From Leptolyngbya sp. PCC 6406 (lineage in GTDB: Bacteria > Cyanobacteriota > Cyanobacteriia > Phormidesmidales > Phormidesmidaceae), in assembly GCF_000332095.2 (NCBI RefSeq), contig NZ_KI913949.1, forward strand, positions 547,912 to 611,911: a stretch of DNA of 64,000 bases, in the 5' to 3' direction. Below, in pieces: positions 34,981-49,245 of the stretch. How positions within the stretch are numbered: the stretch's first letter is position 1; each line of letters begins with the position of its first letter. The translations under genes were made by a program, and so were the position numbers. The notes beneath the pieces were generated by a model. It was not told where the DNA came from and did no database searches. It saw nothing but the letters and a program-made list of their open reading frames with translations.

Positions 34981-36046
34981 GGCACTGTCCTGTTAAGGGG
35001 TGATCCATTCAAATCCTCTGGATAAGAGGATCTCAGAGATTTTCAGTGGGCGCTGAATGAATCCCATTGCCATTGCTGGTGTTCTGGCTTTGCCTAAACT
35101 CCAATGGGGCCGCACCCAGTTGTGAATCAGGCGCTGTACATTTAAAGCCCGCTGCAATCCTTCTAACTGCTTAGCGTAGTGGTTCTGACGTCTTCGATAG
35201 GCCGTTGCTCGACGCCTCAAGGCACTGTTAAAGGCTTCAAGGTGATTGGCATGAACCTCTGCTATGGAACTCATCGCTGTCCAGGGATGCTCCACTTGGA
35301 GCCACTCCACCCGGGCCTTGCCTTGAGAGCCTTTGATCTTGATGGCCACTTCTAAACCTTCACGCCAGACCTTCTGATAGGGATATGCCTCTGAGGTCAG
35401 GTGGCTCGGTAGATAGACGCTGGCCAGTTTCCACAATTCCTTGCCATAGCGCCGCTCGCCATCGGTAAACCATCGAATCCAAGCACTGGACACAGCCCAC
35501 TGCCAGGCCCGCTCCACCCCCTGCTCAAACAACTGAGCCGCCTTGAGTCCCGCACTGGCTTCTAGCCAGTAACGACTCTCTCGCTCAATGAAGCTGATCG
35601 TCCAGCCTTCTGAGGCTTCGGGGGGAAGGTTCTCTCCCACCCGGGTATAGAGTTCATCGCCCTCTATGGTGACTTCTCCGCCCTCAGGTGCAGGGGGAGA
35701 CCAGGCGGGCAGATGAGATGATAAGCGCTCTTCCCAAGCGCTAATACTGCTCGGGGATGTCCCCACGACCCTAGCGGCGGCTCTGATGCCAAGACCTTCG
35801 CCTCTGGCATTCAGGGCCATCTCTACCGTGGCTGCTGGCGTTCGTAGGCGGGCCATCGGGGTACCGCTACGTTCATTGAAGCGACGGCCACACGTCTTAC
35901 AGAGGTAGCGTTGCACGACTTGATCGCTCTTCAAGGTTTTGCTACCGTTCTTGACGACCTCTTCACTCTGGCAATAAATACAGTGCATTGGGCTTAAGGC
36001 TTGCTGCATCTACAGTCTAGCTCTCACCCCCTAAGCTGACAGTGCC
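34981..36046 (-). mobile_element. Complete IS1-like insertion sequence with 8-bp target duplication
   Basis: The element is 1066 bp. Its ends are inverted repeats: left GGCACTGTCCTGTTAAGGGG and right, in complement, GGCACTGTCAGCTTAGGGGG (16 of 20 identical). Direct 8-bp copies of CCCGTACC flank it at 34973-34980 and 36047-36054. One transposase gene fills it. Intact ends, target duplication and open frame suggest a recent, potentially active copy. Joining the flanks restores the sequence CCCGTACCGGGTAATCC next to a repeat C copy. Confidence 0.9.
34993..36009 (-). CDS. IS1-family-like transposase
   Basis: 338 residues in one frame. The N-terminus is a zinc ribbon ('HCIYCQSEE' and 'YLCKTCGRRF') followed by a helix-turn-helix ('GIRAAARVVGTSPSSISAWE'), the InsA-like part of IS1. 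The catalytic part follows with acidic residues in 'VTIEGDELYTRV' and 'IRWFTDGERRYGKELW' and the late 'HANHLEAFNSALRRRA'. Fusion of the two parts in one frame, without the frameshift of classical IS1, is known in some archaeal and cyanobacterial members. The ATG seven codons in is an alternative start. Confidence 0.82.
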   Translation of the reverse strand: MQQALSPMHCIYCQSEEVVKNGSKTLKSDQVVQRYLCKTCGRRFNERSGTPMARLRTPAATVEMALNARGEGLGIRAAARVVGTSPSSISAWEERLSSHLPAWSPPAPEGGEVTIEGDELYTRVGENLPPEASEGWTISFIERESRYWLEASAGLKAAQLFEQGVERAWQWAVSSAWIRWFTDGERRYGKELWKLASVYLPSHLTSEAYPYQKVWREGLEVAIKIKGSQGKARVEWLQVEHPWTAMSSIAEVHANHLEAFNSALRRRATAYRRRQNHYAKQLEGLQRALNVQRLIHNWVRPHWSLGKARTPAMAMGFIQRPLKISEILLSRGFEWITP

Positions 36047-40345: not shown

Positions 40346-41278
40346 TCATCCTTGTCCCGGAGACCTGCGATGCTGTCCAGGGTTAGCTAATTCCCCCACT
40401 CGCCTCTCGCCCACGGCCTCCTGTGTCAATTCCAAATATCGATGCAGATACTCCGTTGTGATCCCGTGGAGCAGCAGTGCCCGCGCTGCCCCAAAGGGAC
40501 TGGTGGGGGCTAGGGGATGACGATTGGTGATTAGGTGATTCCAGCGGTAGTCGTTGATCACGGCGCTGACATAGCAGCCAAAGTTTTCGTCGAACTGGAG
40601 AGACAGCACTGCCCGCTCAAATTCCTGGTTTGTCAACAGCAGCGAATAGAACACCTTGAACAGCTCGATGGCGGATTCCAGATCTAGGATGCGATGCCAG
40701 CGAGGGGTGAAGTCGATGTTGATCTCCACCGGGCGAACGCTATCGAAGGTGACACCTCTCTGGTGCACCGCGTCAATCCAATGGGGATTGGCGGTCTGGG
40801 CCTGGTGATAGTCGTAGACAAAGTTGTAGAGAATTAGGTCATGCTCTAAAAATGCGTTATCCGCCAGATCTGCCTCAGTTTTGGGATACAGACCGGATTT
40901 GGGGATGGTGGGGTCGGGGCCATTGTCGATCAGAAAGTTGACGATATTGGACCCTAGGCCCAGATGACGCACGATCAGGTAGCAGGCTTCGGGACGCACC
41001 CAGGTTTTGAGAAACCAGGCGGCGGCTTGGTGCATGAGCCAGTAGCCCTTGAACTCAAAGGGCAACAGCCGCTTGACCACTAGGATGATTGCCAGCAGTA
41101 GGTTCGCCACCATGCGGATGGGGTTGAGTAGGTAAACCCGACTCCAACTGCGGAGGTCGCGAATCATGTGGGCCTTAGCTACGGGGTCTACGGGGATCGC
41201 TTGATCCAGATACAGCACGTCCCAACCATTGGGATCGCGGCGATTGTAGGGATGGAGTTTGAGGGGGGAGGGGGTCAT
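40346..41278 (-). CDS. Uncharacterised His/Glu-rich helical protein of the ketosynthase cluster
   Basis: 310 residues. One hydrophobic stretch ('MVANLLLAIILVVKRLLPF', near residue 57-75) may be a membrane anchor. Downstream helices carry conserved-looking metal-type residues: 'WLMHQAAAWFLKTWVRPEACYLIVRHLG' and 'NAFLEHDLILYNFVYDYHQAQ', with a Glu-His pair and spaced His. I do not recognise a named family; a metal-binding enzyme or membrane-associated partner is possible. It is the third gene on the minus strand after the membrane methyltransferase and the KASIII fusion, 205 bases beyond the latter with a minisatellite between. The C-terminal 20 residues ('ELANPGQHRRSPGQG') look non-conserved. 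Confidence 0.6.
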   Translation of the reverse strand: MTPSPLKLHPYNRRDPNGWDVLYLDQAIPVDPVAKAHMIRDLRSWSRVYLLNPIRMVANLLLAIILVVKRLLPFEFKGYWLMHQAAAWFLKTWVRPEACYLIVRHLGLGSNIVNFLIDNGPDPTIPKSGLYPKTEADLADNAFLEHDLILYNFVYDYHQAQTANPHWIDAVHQRGVTFDSVRPVEINIDFTPRWHRILDLESAIELFKVFYSLLLTNQEFERAVLSLQFDENFGCYVSAVINDYRWNHLITNRHPLAPTSPFGAARALLLHGITTEYLHRYLELTQEAVGERRVGELANPGQHRRSPGQG

Positions 41279-41280
41279 GG

Positions 41281-41350
41281 GGAGTGGGGGTGTTGGGGTA
41301 TTGGGGTATTGGGGTATTGGGGTATTGGGGTATTGGGGTAGGGAGTATTG
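41281..41350. repeat. GGGGTATT minisatellite
   Basis: A run of about six or seven octamers GGGGTATT with slight variants separates the KASIII-fusion gene from the gene at 40346-41278. The complementary ACCCC-type tracts recur at 18253-18310 and around 55465-55612. Confidence 0.85.
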
Positions 41351-41483
41351 GGGTAGGGGCTTCGCGTCCTCCGTAGGGGCAATCCCTTGTGGTTGCCCTG
41401 TCGCCGGGTGATTCGTATTGATCTATCAACACCTGCCCTGTGGAGGACGACCCGTGATGGACTGTTAGGGTATTTGGGGGCAA

Positions 41484-43433
41484 TTAGCGGACCTCTTCGA
41501 GCTGTAGGAGGTAGAGGCGGGCGGTAACTTGGGCGGTTTTGAGAATACGGGCCGCGATCGCGGGGGTCATCCAGTCAGCATTCAAGATGGCTTCAATTTT
41601 GCCGATGTGGGCCTCGTCGTTGTCGCTGTGGTAGGCCAGGAAGGAGACTTGATCTCGCCGTAGGTTCAGGGTCCGCTGGATCTGTTCTGCCCATTGACCG
41701 GCGAGGCGGTTGCCTAAGCCTTCGATGATGAACATACTGCCGACGAGGTCGATGGGGTTAGGTTGGGAGGCTTGGTGAAAGATAAAGGCGGAGAGGGCTT
41801 CGCTGCCAATGTTCTTCTCGGCGTTGGTGATGTCCGCTAGGGCACCGCCGACGGACACATAATTGCGCTCCAGCATTTGGAAATCTCGGTGTTCATCCTG
41901 GGCGTGGCCGATGAACAGCGATCGCATTTCAAACTCCATCATGTTGGAGGCGGCGCGGGCGATCCAGCGGGCTCCTTCAACGACTTGGGGCCGTAGGTTT
42001 CGCAGCAGGGCTTGGTAGTCTTTTAGGGTAAATTCGCTGCGATTCAGCCGCCGCACTAGGGGGACGCCCTGCAATCGCCGCTCAAAATCTAGCCAGGTCA
42101 ACATCAGTTGCCGCAGGAGTTCCGGCCCAATTTCTGGGGCATCTGAGAGGGCAGCGGGGTTGGGGGGCTCCATCGATTCCCTGGCCGGGGGCTCTGCACC
42201 CTTGGGCGCAGCGCTTGGCGCTGGGGGGAGGTGTGGATCCTGAATCATTGCGGGGGCGGAGGACTGGATTGTCGGACTTGACGCTTCCCTAGCCTGATGC
42301 CCCCGGCCCTCTACCACCCGTAGCATCATGTAGGCGGTAGTGAAGCGGCCACTTTCGGGGATAAAGCAAAAGATCGTTTGTCCTGGTTCTAATTTGCCCG
42401 AGTTGAACAGTTCCTCCAACATCAGGTAAATCGAAGCACAGCCTGTATTGCCTCGGGTATAGAGATTGGTGAACCATTTTTCCTCGGGAATCATGCAGTT
42501 GGCCTTCTCCAACAACTCCACAATCTGACTGCGAAAGAAGTGGGAGGAGTAGTGGCACAGCAGCCAGTCCACTTGGTCGGGTTGCACCCGGCCTTGGTCA
42601 ATCAGGCGCAGCCAGCCTTCGACGCCGAGCTTGATCACCTTGTCTAGGAGACGAATGTTTTGGCGTAGATGGGTGGCCCCAGCTTGGGCGGCCTGTAGGG
42701 TACTGGGGTAGTCCATCCAACTCTTTTCCCCCTGGCCATCGGTGGTTCCTGCGTACATACAGAGGGGGTGGGTGCTGGCGTGGGACACCAGCTCGATCCA
42801 CTCCACCTTGAGGCTCAGACCCTGGGGCTGGGGGCGATCGCGCACCACCATGGCTCCGGCTCCATCGGAGAGCATCCAGCGCAAAAATTCTGTGTCAAAG
42901 GGTAGGGCTTGCCCCGCTTGGATTTCGGGTTGGGCTTCAAATTGGCGATGCTTGAACAGGCGCGAGGCCAGTTCCGAGGCGACGGTAACGGCGCATTGCT
43001 TTTCTCCCCGCGCCACTTGGGCGGTGGCATATTTCAGGGCAGCCACTCCGGCGCAGCAAACCCCTTGGTGGGAGGTGGCTTCCAAGGGGGGCAGTTCTGT
43101 CAAGGTGCCGTGGACCATGCTGGCAAAACCAGGGACTAGGAGATCGGGCCAAGTGGTGGCAGCGCAGAGTAGATCAACTTGGGCCGGATCGAGGGCGCTT
43201 TGGGTCAGGGCATCGCGAACTGCGATCGCGGCCATCTGGTGATTCAGATGGGTGGTGTGCTGATGGCGATCAAGGGCGTAGTGGCGTTGGCGAATGCCGT
43301 TGCTGGCTAGGATGCGCCGCCGCACCTTGGAGGGCTTGCCATTGATGCAGCCTAGGTAGGTTTCCATCTCATCGTTGGCAATGGGGGCACCGGGCAGACA
43401 TTTACCGAGATGGGTGATGTAGGCACTGGACAT
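41484..43433 (-). CDS. Ketoacyl-ACP synthase III fused to a haem-oxygenase-like diiron domain
   Basis: 649 residues from ATG 43433. Residues 1 to about 378 are a thiolase-fold KASIII: active-site Cys in 'HQGVCCAGVAALKYA' (about Cys127), His in 'CHYSSHFF' (about 294) and Asn in 'TRGNTGCASIYL' (about 329). A Pro/Ala/Ser-rich linker spans about 380-432. Residues about 433-649 are helical with 'FIGHAQDEHRDF' (about 508-518), Glu in 'FIIEGLGN' (about 571) and 'YHSDNDEAHIGK', a His-x3-Asp-x2-His pattern as in haem-oxygenase-like diiron oxidases (the UndA/BesC/CADD superfamily). KASIII enzymes join acyl groups; diiron domains oxidise or cleave C-C bonds. Coupling both in one chain suggests a modified fatty-acid or polyketide product. 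The frame is open to 43577, but that stretch includes a repeat D copy and lacks family sequence. Confidence 0.75.
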   Translation of the reverse strand: MSSAYITHLGKCLPGAPIANDEMETYLGCINGKPSKVRRRILASNGIRQRHYALDRHQHTTHLNHQMAAIAVRDALTQSALDPAQVDLLCAATTWPDLLVPGFASMVHGTLTELPPLEATSHQGVCCAGVAALKYATAQVARGEKQCAVTVASELASRLFKHRQFEAQPEIQAGQALPFDTEFLRWMLSDGAGAMVVRDRPQPQGLSLKVEWIELVSHASTHPLCMYAGTTDGQGEKSWMDYPSTLQAAQAGATHLRQNIRLLDKVIKLGVEGWLRLIDQGRVQPDQVDWLLCHYSSHFFRSQIVELLEKANCMIPEEKWFTNLYTRGNTGCASIYLMLEELFNSGKLEPGQTIFCFIPESGRFTTAYMMLRVVEGRGHQAREASSPTIQSSAPAMIQDPHLPPAPSAAPKGAEPPARESMEPPNPAALSDAPEIGPELLRQLMLTWLDFERRLQGVPLVRRLNRSEFTLKDYQALLRNLRPQVVEGARWIARAASNMMEFEMRSLFIGHAQDEHRDFQMLERNYVSVGGALADITNAEKNIGSEALSAFIFHQASQPNPIDLVGSMFIIEGLGNRLAGQWAEQIQRTLNLRRDQVSFLAYHSDNDEAHIGKIEAILNADWMTPAIAARILKTAQVTARLYLLQLEEVR

Positions 43434-43544
43434 GGGACACCATTGGGGTTGGAGCAGGTGGGTTGGAGCAGGGGCAGTCAGGCCCATGGCTCCGACAGTA
43501 ACTCTGGGCTCGGAACCTGTGCCAGTATGGTGTGACAATTCCCG

Positions 43545-43576
43545 TGATGGTCTTTGACCGGCCAAAGGCCATCGCA
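43545..43576. repeat. Palindromic repeat D, divergent copy upstream of the KASIII fusion
   Basis: TGATGGTCTTTGACCGGCCA continuing to CATCGCA. It aligns with repeat D over its whole length with several substitutions and lies between the membrane methyltransferase gene and the KASIII start codon. Confidence 0.6.
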
Positions 43577-43605
43577 CCCATCTGCCTGATTGGGATTGAT
43601 TGGGA

Positions 43606-44118
43606 TTAATACAGCCAGGGAATCAGCTTTTTCACCCGGTGGCGATAGTCTTCATAGTCGGGATAACGCGCCATCAGCCAGATTTCCTCCTGACGAGCCT
43701 TGGCATCCAGCAGCACAAACAGCGCCAGGGTCACCATAAAGTGGGACAGGCTTAGGGTCCAAAAACTGTAGGCAGCGGTGCCCAGAATTAAGCCGCTATA
43801 GAGGCAGTGGCGCACCAGGCTATAGACTCCGGTTTGCACCAGTTCGCCATCCTCACGGGGATAGGGCAACGGCGTTAGACTCGGACCTAAATCTACCAAC
43901 CCCTTGCCCAATAACAGCAGGGCCAACAGGGCTAGTCCAACTGCGATCGCACGGGTACCCAACCGGGTCCAGATCGGCAAACTGTCCAGAATCGCTGGTT
44001 GCCACAGCGGTACGAGGCCAAACCCCACCAGCAGGACGGCCTGCCCCAGCACCCAATATTCCCCCCGTTCCCCCTTCCAACTGGCTTTAGAAAAGCCCCA
44101 GTCCTGCCAGAGTCCCAT
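43606..44118 (-). CDS. Isoprenylcysteine carboxyl methyltransferase-like membrane protein
   Basis: About 170 residues with four or five hydrophobic helices. The C-terminal motif 'LVQTGVYSLVRHCLYSGLIL' and 'AKARQEEIWLMARYPDYEDYRHRVKKLIPWL' matches the ICMT/PEMT membrane methyltransferase family, which binds SAM between its last helices. Bacterial members mostly lack known substrates. Two ATGs lie close together (44124 and 44118); the second has GAGGA at better spacing. It is the first gene of the set running into the KASIII fusion, so methylation of that product is plausible. Confidence 0.78.
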   Translation of the reverse strand: MGLWQDWGFSKASWKGERGEYWVLGQAVLLVGFGLVPLWQPAILDSLPIWTRLGTRAIAVGLALLALLLLGKGLVDLGPSLTPLPYPREDGELVQTGVYSLVRHCLYSGLILGTAAYSFWTLSLSHFMVTLALFVLLDAKARQEEIWLMARYPDYEDYRHRVKKLIPWLY

Positions 44119-44209
44119 TGTCATTCCTCACGAATTACATCAAAAGAGATTGGGTGAAAAGCCCAACCCCTCTATTGATTAGTATGGGTTCAGGAACTGT
44201 GAATCGAAA

Positions 44210-47880: not shown

Positions 47881-49245
47881 TCTGGTGTATGGCAGGAAAT
47901 CAAGCGGCGTCCTGCTGTGGGGTTAAATCAGTCTTGTCATCGGCTCGACAGCCATCTTTGAATGGGACTCCTTCAATCACATCAGCGAGGTATTTGAAGC
48001 CTCGAATTCTGAGCCAGCTTTTCTGAGCACTCTCGACCAGCTTGAACACCAGGGCCAGGATGGTGTCCTTGGAAACACAGCCTCGGGTCTTATCGGTTCT
48101 GAGGCGCACGGTGGCAAAGGTAGACTCAATGGGATTGGTGGTGCGAATATGCGCCCAATGCTCAGCGGGGAAATCGAAGAAGGTGAGCAGGACATCTCGG
48201 TCTTTGAGCAGACAGGTGACGGCTTCTGGATACTTGGCCTGGTAGGTCTTGCTAAAGCGGTCTAAGGCCTGATTCGCCTCTGTTTTAGACTCAGCTCGAT
48301 AAATCTCCCAAATCGCTCGTTTGGCCTCCGGTTGCTGACGCTTCGGTAATTTGTTGAGCACGTTAGCCGTCTTATGCACCCAGCAGCGTTGTATCTGGGT
48401 GGTTGGAAACACTTGAGGTAGCGCTTTCCAGAAGCCTAAGGCTCCGTCACCGATGGCCAATTCAGGAGCCTGCGAGAGCCCTTGGTCCTTAAGGCGCAAC
48501 AACAGTGATGTCCAACTCAATTCAGACTCCCGATAGCCCGCATCGAGGCCCAGGAGTTCTTTGTGGCCGTTATCGGTGACCCCGATGATGACCAGAATGC
48601 ACTGCCGTTCATCGGCACGAATGTTGAAATAAATGCCATCGGCCCAAATATAGACGTAGCGCTGCTGTCGTAATGACCGCTGCTGCCAGTCGTGGTGCTC
48701 GTCACTCCACTTCGCCTTCAACCGGCTAATCGTGGCGGGAGAGACCCCTTTGGCCTCACTCCCTAACAACGCGCTCAGAGCCTCGCTAAAGTCGCCCGTT
48801 GACACCCCTTTGAGATACAGCCATGGCAGCAGTTCCTCCACGCTGCGGGCACGTTTCAGGTACGGTGGCAGCAACTGGGAGGTGAACTTTATCCCACTGC
48901 CACTGCGGTCTCGCACTTTCGGCACTTGAATTTCCACCTCGCCTACTCCAGTCGTAATCGTCCGTTCGGGCAAGTAGCCGTTGCGCACCACCACCTGCCG
49001 TCCTTGCTCATCTCGACGGTCTTGGTACTGCCCTAAAAACTCTTGCAGTTCTGCCTCCACCGCCTGGGCGATGATCTGCCGGGCTCCTCGTCGAATCAGA
49101 TCGCTCAGCGCATCGCTGAAGGTCTCCGTTGTCTGGGGCGTGGGTAATGAAATAAGATTGTCGCTATTCATGGTGTATTCCTTCTCTGGTGCTTGGTTTC
49201 ATCCAGCAGGATACGCCCTTCCTCCTTTTCCCTCCATACACCAGA
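47881..49245 (-). mobile_element. IS256-family insertion sequence
   Basis: 1365 bp. The left end TCTGGTGTATGGCAGGAAA and the complement of the right end TCTGGTGTATGGAGGGAAA are inverted repeats, with further similarity inwards (CCTGCTG). The flanks (ATAGTCAAA and AATGAGCAT) do not form a target duplication, so the element is old or has recombined. One full-length transposase gene is inside. Confidence 0.82.
47900..49171 (-). CDS. IS256-family transposase
   Basis: 423 residues with the IS256 catalytic triad: Asp in 'YVYIWADGIYFNIR', Asp in 'LAIGDGALGFWKALPQVF' and Glu in 'HIRTTNPIESTFATVRLRT'. The family motif 'TQIQRCWVHKTANVLNKLPK' is intact. No frameshift is seen. Start is ATG 49171. Confidence 0.93.
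   Translation of the reverse strand: MNSDNLISLPTPQTTETFSDALSDLIRRGARQIIAQAVEAELQEFLGQYQDRRDEQGRQVVVRNGYLPERTITTGVGEVEIQVPKVRDRSGSGIKFTSQLLPPYLKRARSVEELLPWLYLKGVSTGDFSEALSALLGSEAKGVSPATISRLKAKWSDEHHDWQQRSLRQQRYVYIWADGIYFNIRADERQCILVIIGVTDNGHKELLGLDAGYRESELSWTSLLLRLKDQGLSQAPELAIGDGALGFWKALPQVFPTTQIQRCWVHKTANVLNKLPKRQQPEAKRAIWEIYRAESKTEANQALDRFSKTYQAKYPEAVTCLLKDRDVLLTFFDFPAEHWAHIRTTNPIESTFATVRLRTDKTRGCVSKDTILALVFKLVESAQKSWLRIRGFKYLADVIEGVPFKDGCRADDKTDLTPQQDAA

Follow-up and report, generated by a model that had tools for sequence, protein, structure and literature searches.

The ketosynthase StlD, from the bacterial stilbene pathway, is a cyclohexanedione synthase, and enzymes of the StlD/DarB type form dialkyl-cyclohexanediones and resorcinols; DarA, found with DarB, is a flavodoxin-like aromatase. 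DarB-type ketosynthases yield cyclohexanediones, DarA has been assigned as the DAR aromatase (PMC3949708), and cyanobacterial clusters of the bartoloside type contain both proteins (PMC8406957). The haem-oxygenase-like oxidases (HDOs) typically carry the motif E-H-X-H-D/E-H, whose initial Glu-His is present in about 85% of 150 HDO groups surveyed (PMC11363339). A ketosynthase-fused HDO is not described in the 2026 review of these enzymes (PMC13108848), no paper on a ketosynthase-HDO fusion was found among the open-access papers searched, and the one open-access paper naming PF14518 was irrelevant.

The locus analysed here lies within the window, the whole stretch of 64,000 nt, and consists of three ORFs on the minus strand (40346-41278, 41484-43577 and 43606-44124). 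All three same-strand ORFs of the preliminary description are present; its span, 40346-44118, is correct at the start, whereas the methyltransferase ORF at the other end reaches 44124, 6 bases further. The central ORF encodes 697 aa from a GTG at 43577 and 649 aa from an ATG at 43433. The ATG agrees with homologous starts in most of the 33 cyanobacterial loci described below, the first 48 codons from the GTG are not conserved, and residue numbers are therefore counted from the ATG. In the alignment, the protein is 66-71% identical to 25 homologues. From N- to C-terminus, it comprises a StlD/DarB-like ketosynthase (KAS) domain, a linker of variable length and an HDO domain (Table 1). Between the fusion gene and the DUF6999 gene, a tandem repeat of GGGGTATT extends over 8.8 copies (41271-41355). 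Transposase-like ORFs flank the region on either side (34993-36009 and 47900-49171), the latter resembling the IS256 family when judged by eye.

Table 1 Features of the KAS-HDO locus in the window (all on the minus strand).
Feature	Position	Strand	Basis or remark
DUF6999 (PF22523) protein, 310 aa	40346..41278	-	Pfam; conserved partner of the fusion
KAS-HDO fusion gene, 649 aa	41484..43433	-	Conserved ATG; homologue alignment
HDO domain (haem-oxygenase-like, PF14518), residues 435-649 + stop	41484..42131	-	Pfam, fold
Core helix 3 motif His602-x3-Asp606-x2-His609	41607..41630	-	Invariant; aligns with the same motif in 3dde
Core helix 2 candidate ligand Glu571	41721..41723	-	Invariant, 28 sequences
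Core helix 1 candidate ligands His510-x3-Glu514-x2-Asp517, non-canonical	41883..41906	-	Invariant, 28 sequences
Pro/Ala/Ser-rich linker, residues 375-434, length variable	42132..42311	-	pLDDT low at 378-432; KAS and HDO unfused in Pseudoalteromonas
StlD/DarB-like KAS domain, residues 1-374	42312..43433	-	phmmer, NF005293, VIA-align
Catalytic Asn329 codon	42447..42449	-	Invariant in 28 sequences
Catalytic His294 codon (StlD His302)	42552..42554	-	Alignment to StlD; invariant in 28 sequences
Catalytic Cys126 codon	43056..43058	-	Invariant, 28 sequences, three phyla
ICMT/PEMT-like membrane methyltransferase, 172 aa	43606..44124	-	PF04191/PF04140; not in the conserved unit

A single scan of a genome collection yielded 33 cyanobacterial fusion loci, and in every one of them a DUF6999 gene lies downstream of the fusion on the same strand, mostly less than 200 bp away. 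The DUF6999 gene is cut by the contig end in L009, and a short ORF sits between it and the fusion in L008 and L012. The fusion itself is split within the linker by a short duplication in L035 and carries an internal deletion in L034. When 386 cyanobacterial genomes were sampled evenly, DUF6999 scored over the cut-off in nine, all of which contain the fusion (Fisher p 2e-17 for co-occurrence, with kinship among genomes ignored). The tenth fusion genome of this sample, G099, is without DUF6999, and its fusion has a KAS broken by stops and an HDO truncated before core helix 3. An MsrA-like gene adjoins this decayed copy (L077). Beyond cyanobacteria, DUF6999 was found in three Bacteroidota genomes (G573, G610 and G949), and in each of them the fusion adjoins it. 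Proteobacteria were sampled through plasmids only; on a megaplasmid of Pseudoalteromonas sp. THAF3, KAS, HDO and DUF6999 are three consecutive separate genes. The genome of Caulobacter vibrioides, used as a control, contains both DUF6999 and PF14518. The KASIII-like/HDO fusion proposed in the preliminary description is thus real and old: two phyla have it in fused form, and a third has its parts as neighbouring but separate genes. The conserved unit is KAS-HDO together with DUF6999. The presence of this set, fused and unfused, in distant phyla makes it very likely that KAS, HDO and DUF6999 are functionally coupled. The first membrane gene of the THAF3 cluster was considered as a further shared part and rejected; it belongs to no Pfam family, and its relatives are annotated as diguanylate cyclase or hypothetical.

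The window protein is a full-length member of the DUF6999 family (336 bits against a cut-off of 27, with profile positions 2-273 of 275 matched), and the analysis newly ties this family to KAS-HDO. It is the protein previously described as His/Glu-rich and membrane-associated, now recognised as the conserved partner adjoining the fusion. It is probably a membrane-associated helical protein, with a single clear hydrophobic segment and a helical model of mean pLDDT 80.9. R104, H105, H146-D147, D199, H271 and E276 are among the residues invariant in 30 DUF6999 sequences. PDB sequence searches, Foldseek and VIA-align produced nothing usable (E 1.4 and Z 3.5 at best), which is no proof that the fold is new. 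No DUF6999 was found in viral contigs, and no paper on the family was found among the open-access papers searched.

The KAS domain is closest to StlD, both in sequence (phmmer against 5gk0, E 7.5e-85, compared with 0.002-0.09 for OleA chains) and in fold. The AlphaFold model of this half is modest (mean pLDDT 66.7, shallow alignment); its nearest structure in VIA-align is 5gk2, the H302A mutant of StlD (Z 29.1, 4.9 Å over 313 residues, 37% identity), and OleA structures come second among ketosynthases in the fold ranking. On NF005293, the NCBI StlD/DarB model, the window KAS scores 436 bits, below the cut-off of 450, the THAF3 KAS scores 372 bits, and ordinary DarB controls score 551-552; on NF053539, the window KAS scores 377 bits against a cut-off of 550. 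The earlier label of KASIII is to be corrected: the domain is KASIII-like, but of StlD/DarB type by sequence and fold and not a generic KASIII. Its Cys-His-Asn triad, already described as intact, is invariant in 28 sequences. So is Glu154, in KAS sequences from the same three phyla, at a position which we take to be catalytic in StlD.

With StlD/DarB (5gk0-5gk2), the window KAS shares the fold, the triad and an FLRxMLSD motif, with about 37-41% of residues identical along the KAS, and C126, E154, H294, N329 and FLRxMLSD are common to HDO-linked KAS and DarA-linked DarB enzymes. The HDO-linked enzymes differ by a fused or neighbouring HDO, by DUF6999 and by having no DarA nearby. Sixteen positions are invariant among them and different in every DarA-linked KAS compared, including F103, H218 and C293, which adjoins the catalytic His294, so that the substrate and the ring may differ from those of DarB. 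In the KAS tree, the HDO-linked KAS stand apart from the DarB branch (100/99); the branch that has all their rows on one side is weakly supported (59-67%), and the placement of the root and of the Streptomyces row is unsure. A Streptomyces plasmid (L101:10058-12161) carries what may be a resorcinol-type cluster, in which a StlD/DarB-like KAS adjoins a DarA homologue and is accompanied by ACPs, a P450 and FabF. Plasmids of Bacteroides and Prevotella (L109, L110) each carry a lone StlD/DarB-type ketosynthase by a putative regulator; neither DarA nor an HDO accompanies it.

A contrast with the described clusters lies in DarA, which stands beside the ketosynthase in 27 of 29 DarB-only loci but in none of 37 HDO-linked loci within the fetched flanks. 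A search that succeeded on two positive controls found no DarA in 10 fusion genomes, and a search run without a positive control found none in five more; with the window's genome in both sets, DarA was found neither there nor in 14 further fusion genomes. The Bacteroidota genome G573 has a separate DarA on another contig, so the exclusion holds by locus and not by genome, one genome can have both pathways, and the fusion need not yield a resorcinol. The ketosynthase of the DarA/DarB dialkylresorcinol and bartoloside-type clusters belongs to the same superfamily branch and similar ring chemistry is expected, but their DarA aromatase is replaced at the fusion locus by HDO and DUF6999. From these locus counts, HDO and DUF6999 probably take over the oxidation step.

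The PF14518 profile and structure prediction, both named in the preliminary description as checks on the C-terminal domain, agree on its family. The window HDO passes the PF14518 cut-off narrowly (29.3-29.5 bits against 28.9), and all 26 aligned homologues match the profile (E ≤ 0.001). The model of residues 434-649 has seven helices with pLDDT mostly 75-94, and it superposes on 3dde_A (Z 25.6, 1.9 Å over 213 residues) and on CADD, 1rcw (Z 23.2, 2.1 Å over 208 residues). Since E-H-X-H-D/E-H is a majority feature only, membership of the superfamily rests on fold and profile. Two more PF14518 matches were seen in the window's genome (G000; L117 and L118), that of L118 with canonical-looking ligand motifs.

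UndA, CADD, SznF, BesC and AetD have in common with the window HDO the seven-helix fold, the Glu of core helix 2 and the His-x3-Asp-x2-His of core helix 3. They differ in core helix 1, where they carry Glu...His, and in that the fusion HDO is tethered to a ketosynthase. The canonical Glu/Asp...His pair is missing from the window HDO, and His510-x3-Glu514-x2-Asp517 takes its place. In core helix 1 of the closest further HDO clade found, the motif is Glu-x2-His; its His position corresponds to Asp517, and His510 lies two turns before it. Asp76-x2-His79 of AetD is comparable to this Glu-x2-His (PMC11611611). The core helix 1 set and the core helix 3 motif recur in cyanobacteria, Bacteroidota, including two further Bacteroidota fusions, and Pseudoalteromonas. 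The core helix 3 motif is not a chance occurrence, because it and Glu571 are invariant across these three phyla, and the earlier reading of His-x3-Asp-x2-His with further Glu/His residues is thereby sustained. Three His and at least four carboxylates are kept but rearranged, and they are candidate metal ligands. Glu/Asp486 of the fusion, on a preceding helix, is a possible counterpart of the fourth carboxylate in enzymes of the SznF type. A dimetal (diiron) centre is likely, and only likely because the core helix 1 ligands are non-canonical; the fold and the ligands of core helices 2 and 3 agree with the diiron assignment first made, and the canonical set of core helix 1 does not.

Among plasmids, the HDOs outside the unit that come nearest, at about 27-30% to that of THAF3, belong to a cluster of thermostable haemolysin, AMP-binding, HDO and SDR genes in Citrobacter, Vibrio and Pantoea, whose HDO has the canonical Glu-x2-His in core helix 1 and whose partner genes differ. 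This set, with canonical HDO ligands, was seen on plasmids of Citrobacter, Vibrio, Pantoea and Salinivibrio (L103, L104, L105 and L106).

At roughly even odds (about 0.5), KAS-HDO and DUF6999 constitute a three-component lipid-ring synthase in which the HDO oxidises the ring product in place of DarA. As expected from its family, the KAS would join two acyl-thioester units, at least one of them a beta-ketoacyl, and would close the joined units to a ring of the 2,5-dialkyl-cyclohexane-1,3-dione type. The tethered HDO dimetal domain would then use O2 to give an oxidised ring product, with desaturation to a dialkylresorcinol or hydroxylation towards a quinol or quinone as the likeliest reaction, a step that would stand in for the flavodoxin-like DarA aromatase. 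DUF6999, with its invariant His105, His146-Asp147, His271 and Glu276, would probably receive, modify or help oxidise the lipid at the membrane. The most likely product would be an oxidised lipid of the dialkyl-cyclohexanedione, resorcinol or quinol kind. The KAS score below the NF005293 cut-off, the sixteen differing KAS positions, the separate DarA of G573 and the failure to see a dedicated ACP gene linked to the unit count against this reading.

Other redox and lipid genes lie near some loci. A Coq4-like protein of about 155-220 aa with the motif HDIMHVVTGY or HDxxHVxTG is encoded near 11 of the 33 cyanobacterial loci (L008:7096-7605, with homologues in L003, L004, L006, L009, L010, L012, L015, L032, L033 and L035), only a few kb from the fusion and either divergent or downstream; G060 and G170 likewise have it close to their fusion. 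Among 60 genomes sampled, strong matches to it occurred in two fusion carriers only, and its similarity to Coq4 is consistent but weak (E 0.007-0.1). In two of the three Bacteroidota loci, an FA_hydroxylase gene (PF04116) lies directly upstream of the fusion (L121:11273-11998 and L130:5349-6080). Together, the Coq4-like protein and the Bacteroidota FA_hydroxylase hint at further oxidation of the ring or chain.

The order of the two reactions might be reversed, with the HDO oxidising or desaturating the acyl substrate before condensation to give a 2-enoyl or activated acyl unit and DUF6999 presenting the acyl donor. Characterised HDOs indeed work mainly on fatty and amino acids (PMC13108848), and no dedicated dehydratase or ACP gene linked to the KAS-HDO/DUF6999 unit was seen at the loci. 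The enzyme missing from HDO-linked loci, however, is DarA, which acts after condensation, so that oxidation after condensation fits better and the reversed order appears unlikely. A pathway without a ring can also be drawn, in which an OleA-like head-to-head condensation would yield a beta-keto acid and an UndA-like HDO would decarboxylate or cleave it to an olefin, ketone or hydrocarbon. It accords with the rank of OleA right behind StlD in the fold comparison and with the activity of UndA as a fatty-acid decarboxylase (PMC11363339), but the KAS sequence is so much nearer StlD than OleA that we regard this outcome as quite unlikely. The C-terminal domain might, finally, hold one metal or none and be a mononuclear enzyme or a module with a structural or regulatory role, as the replacement of Glu...His by His-x3-Glu-x2-Asp in core helix 1 would allow and as FlcD illustrates, HDOs being able to be mononuclear. 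Nearly all His and carboxylate candidates of the HDO are nevertheless invariant across three phyla, core helix 3 is canonical, and the composition still permits three His with four to five carboxylates, which leaves a domain other than a dimetal oxidase improbable.

The remaining alternative concerns the third ORF, whose product would methylate the lipid in a three-gene pathway. Its methyltransferase scores lie just above the Pfam cut-offs (27.4 against 25 for PF04191, 25.9 against 24 for PF04140) and miss that of NF040696, the NCBI isoprenylcysteine methyltransferase model (41.9 against 160 bits); the ICMT-like identity suggested at the outset thus stands weakly by Pfam and falls short by NF040696. 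In the window, the gene lies some 170 bp ahead of the fusion's conserved ATG and on the strand of the fusion, and no terminator-like site was found between it and the fusion gene. Against a shared pathway, no match to it occurs in the 33 cyanobacterial fusion loci (flanks up to 8 kb) or in the other fusion loci tested, including a stretch from G170, of the same family. The ICMT-like gene was accordingly rejected as a pathway member, and its involvement is very improbable. The preliminary description had named conserved co-occurrence of all three genes as support for its claim, and such co-occurrence is seen for the fusion and DUF6999 (33/33) and not for the ICMT-like gene (0/33). From its proposal of condensation, oxidation and methylation towards an unusual lipid, condensation and oxidation remain a sound inference and methylation drops out.

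The preferred reading, a ring-forming KAS whose product is oxidised by the tethered HDO, would in its widest form describe a new bacterial lipid pathway in at least three phyla, dependent on DUF6999 and on a KAS-tethered, O2-dependent HDO with a rearranged metal site, in which a polyketide-type ring would be oxidatively aromatised or hydroxylated to a membrane resorcinol or quinone by a reaction new for HDOs. This wider proposal is tentative, and we consider it possible but doubtful; to our knowledge, no characterised HDO aromatises a ring. If true, DUF6999 would gain its first functional context, and the HDO superfamily would gain a ketosynthase-tethered member with a rearranged metal site. 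The aromatase step of the dialkylresorcinol type would be replaced by an unrelated oxidase. In conclusion, the fusion and DUF6999 would form a discrete, easily expressed two-gene unit, probably making an unknown lipid of cyanobacteria and marine bacteria.
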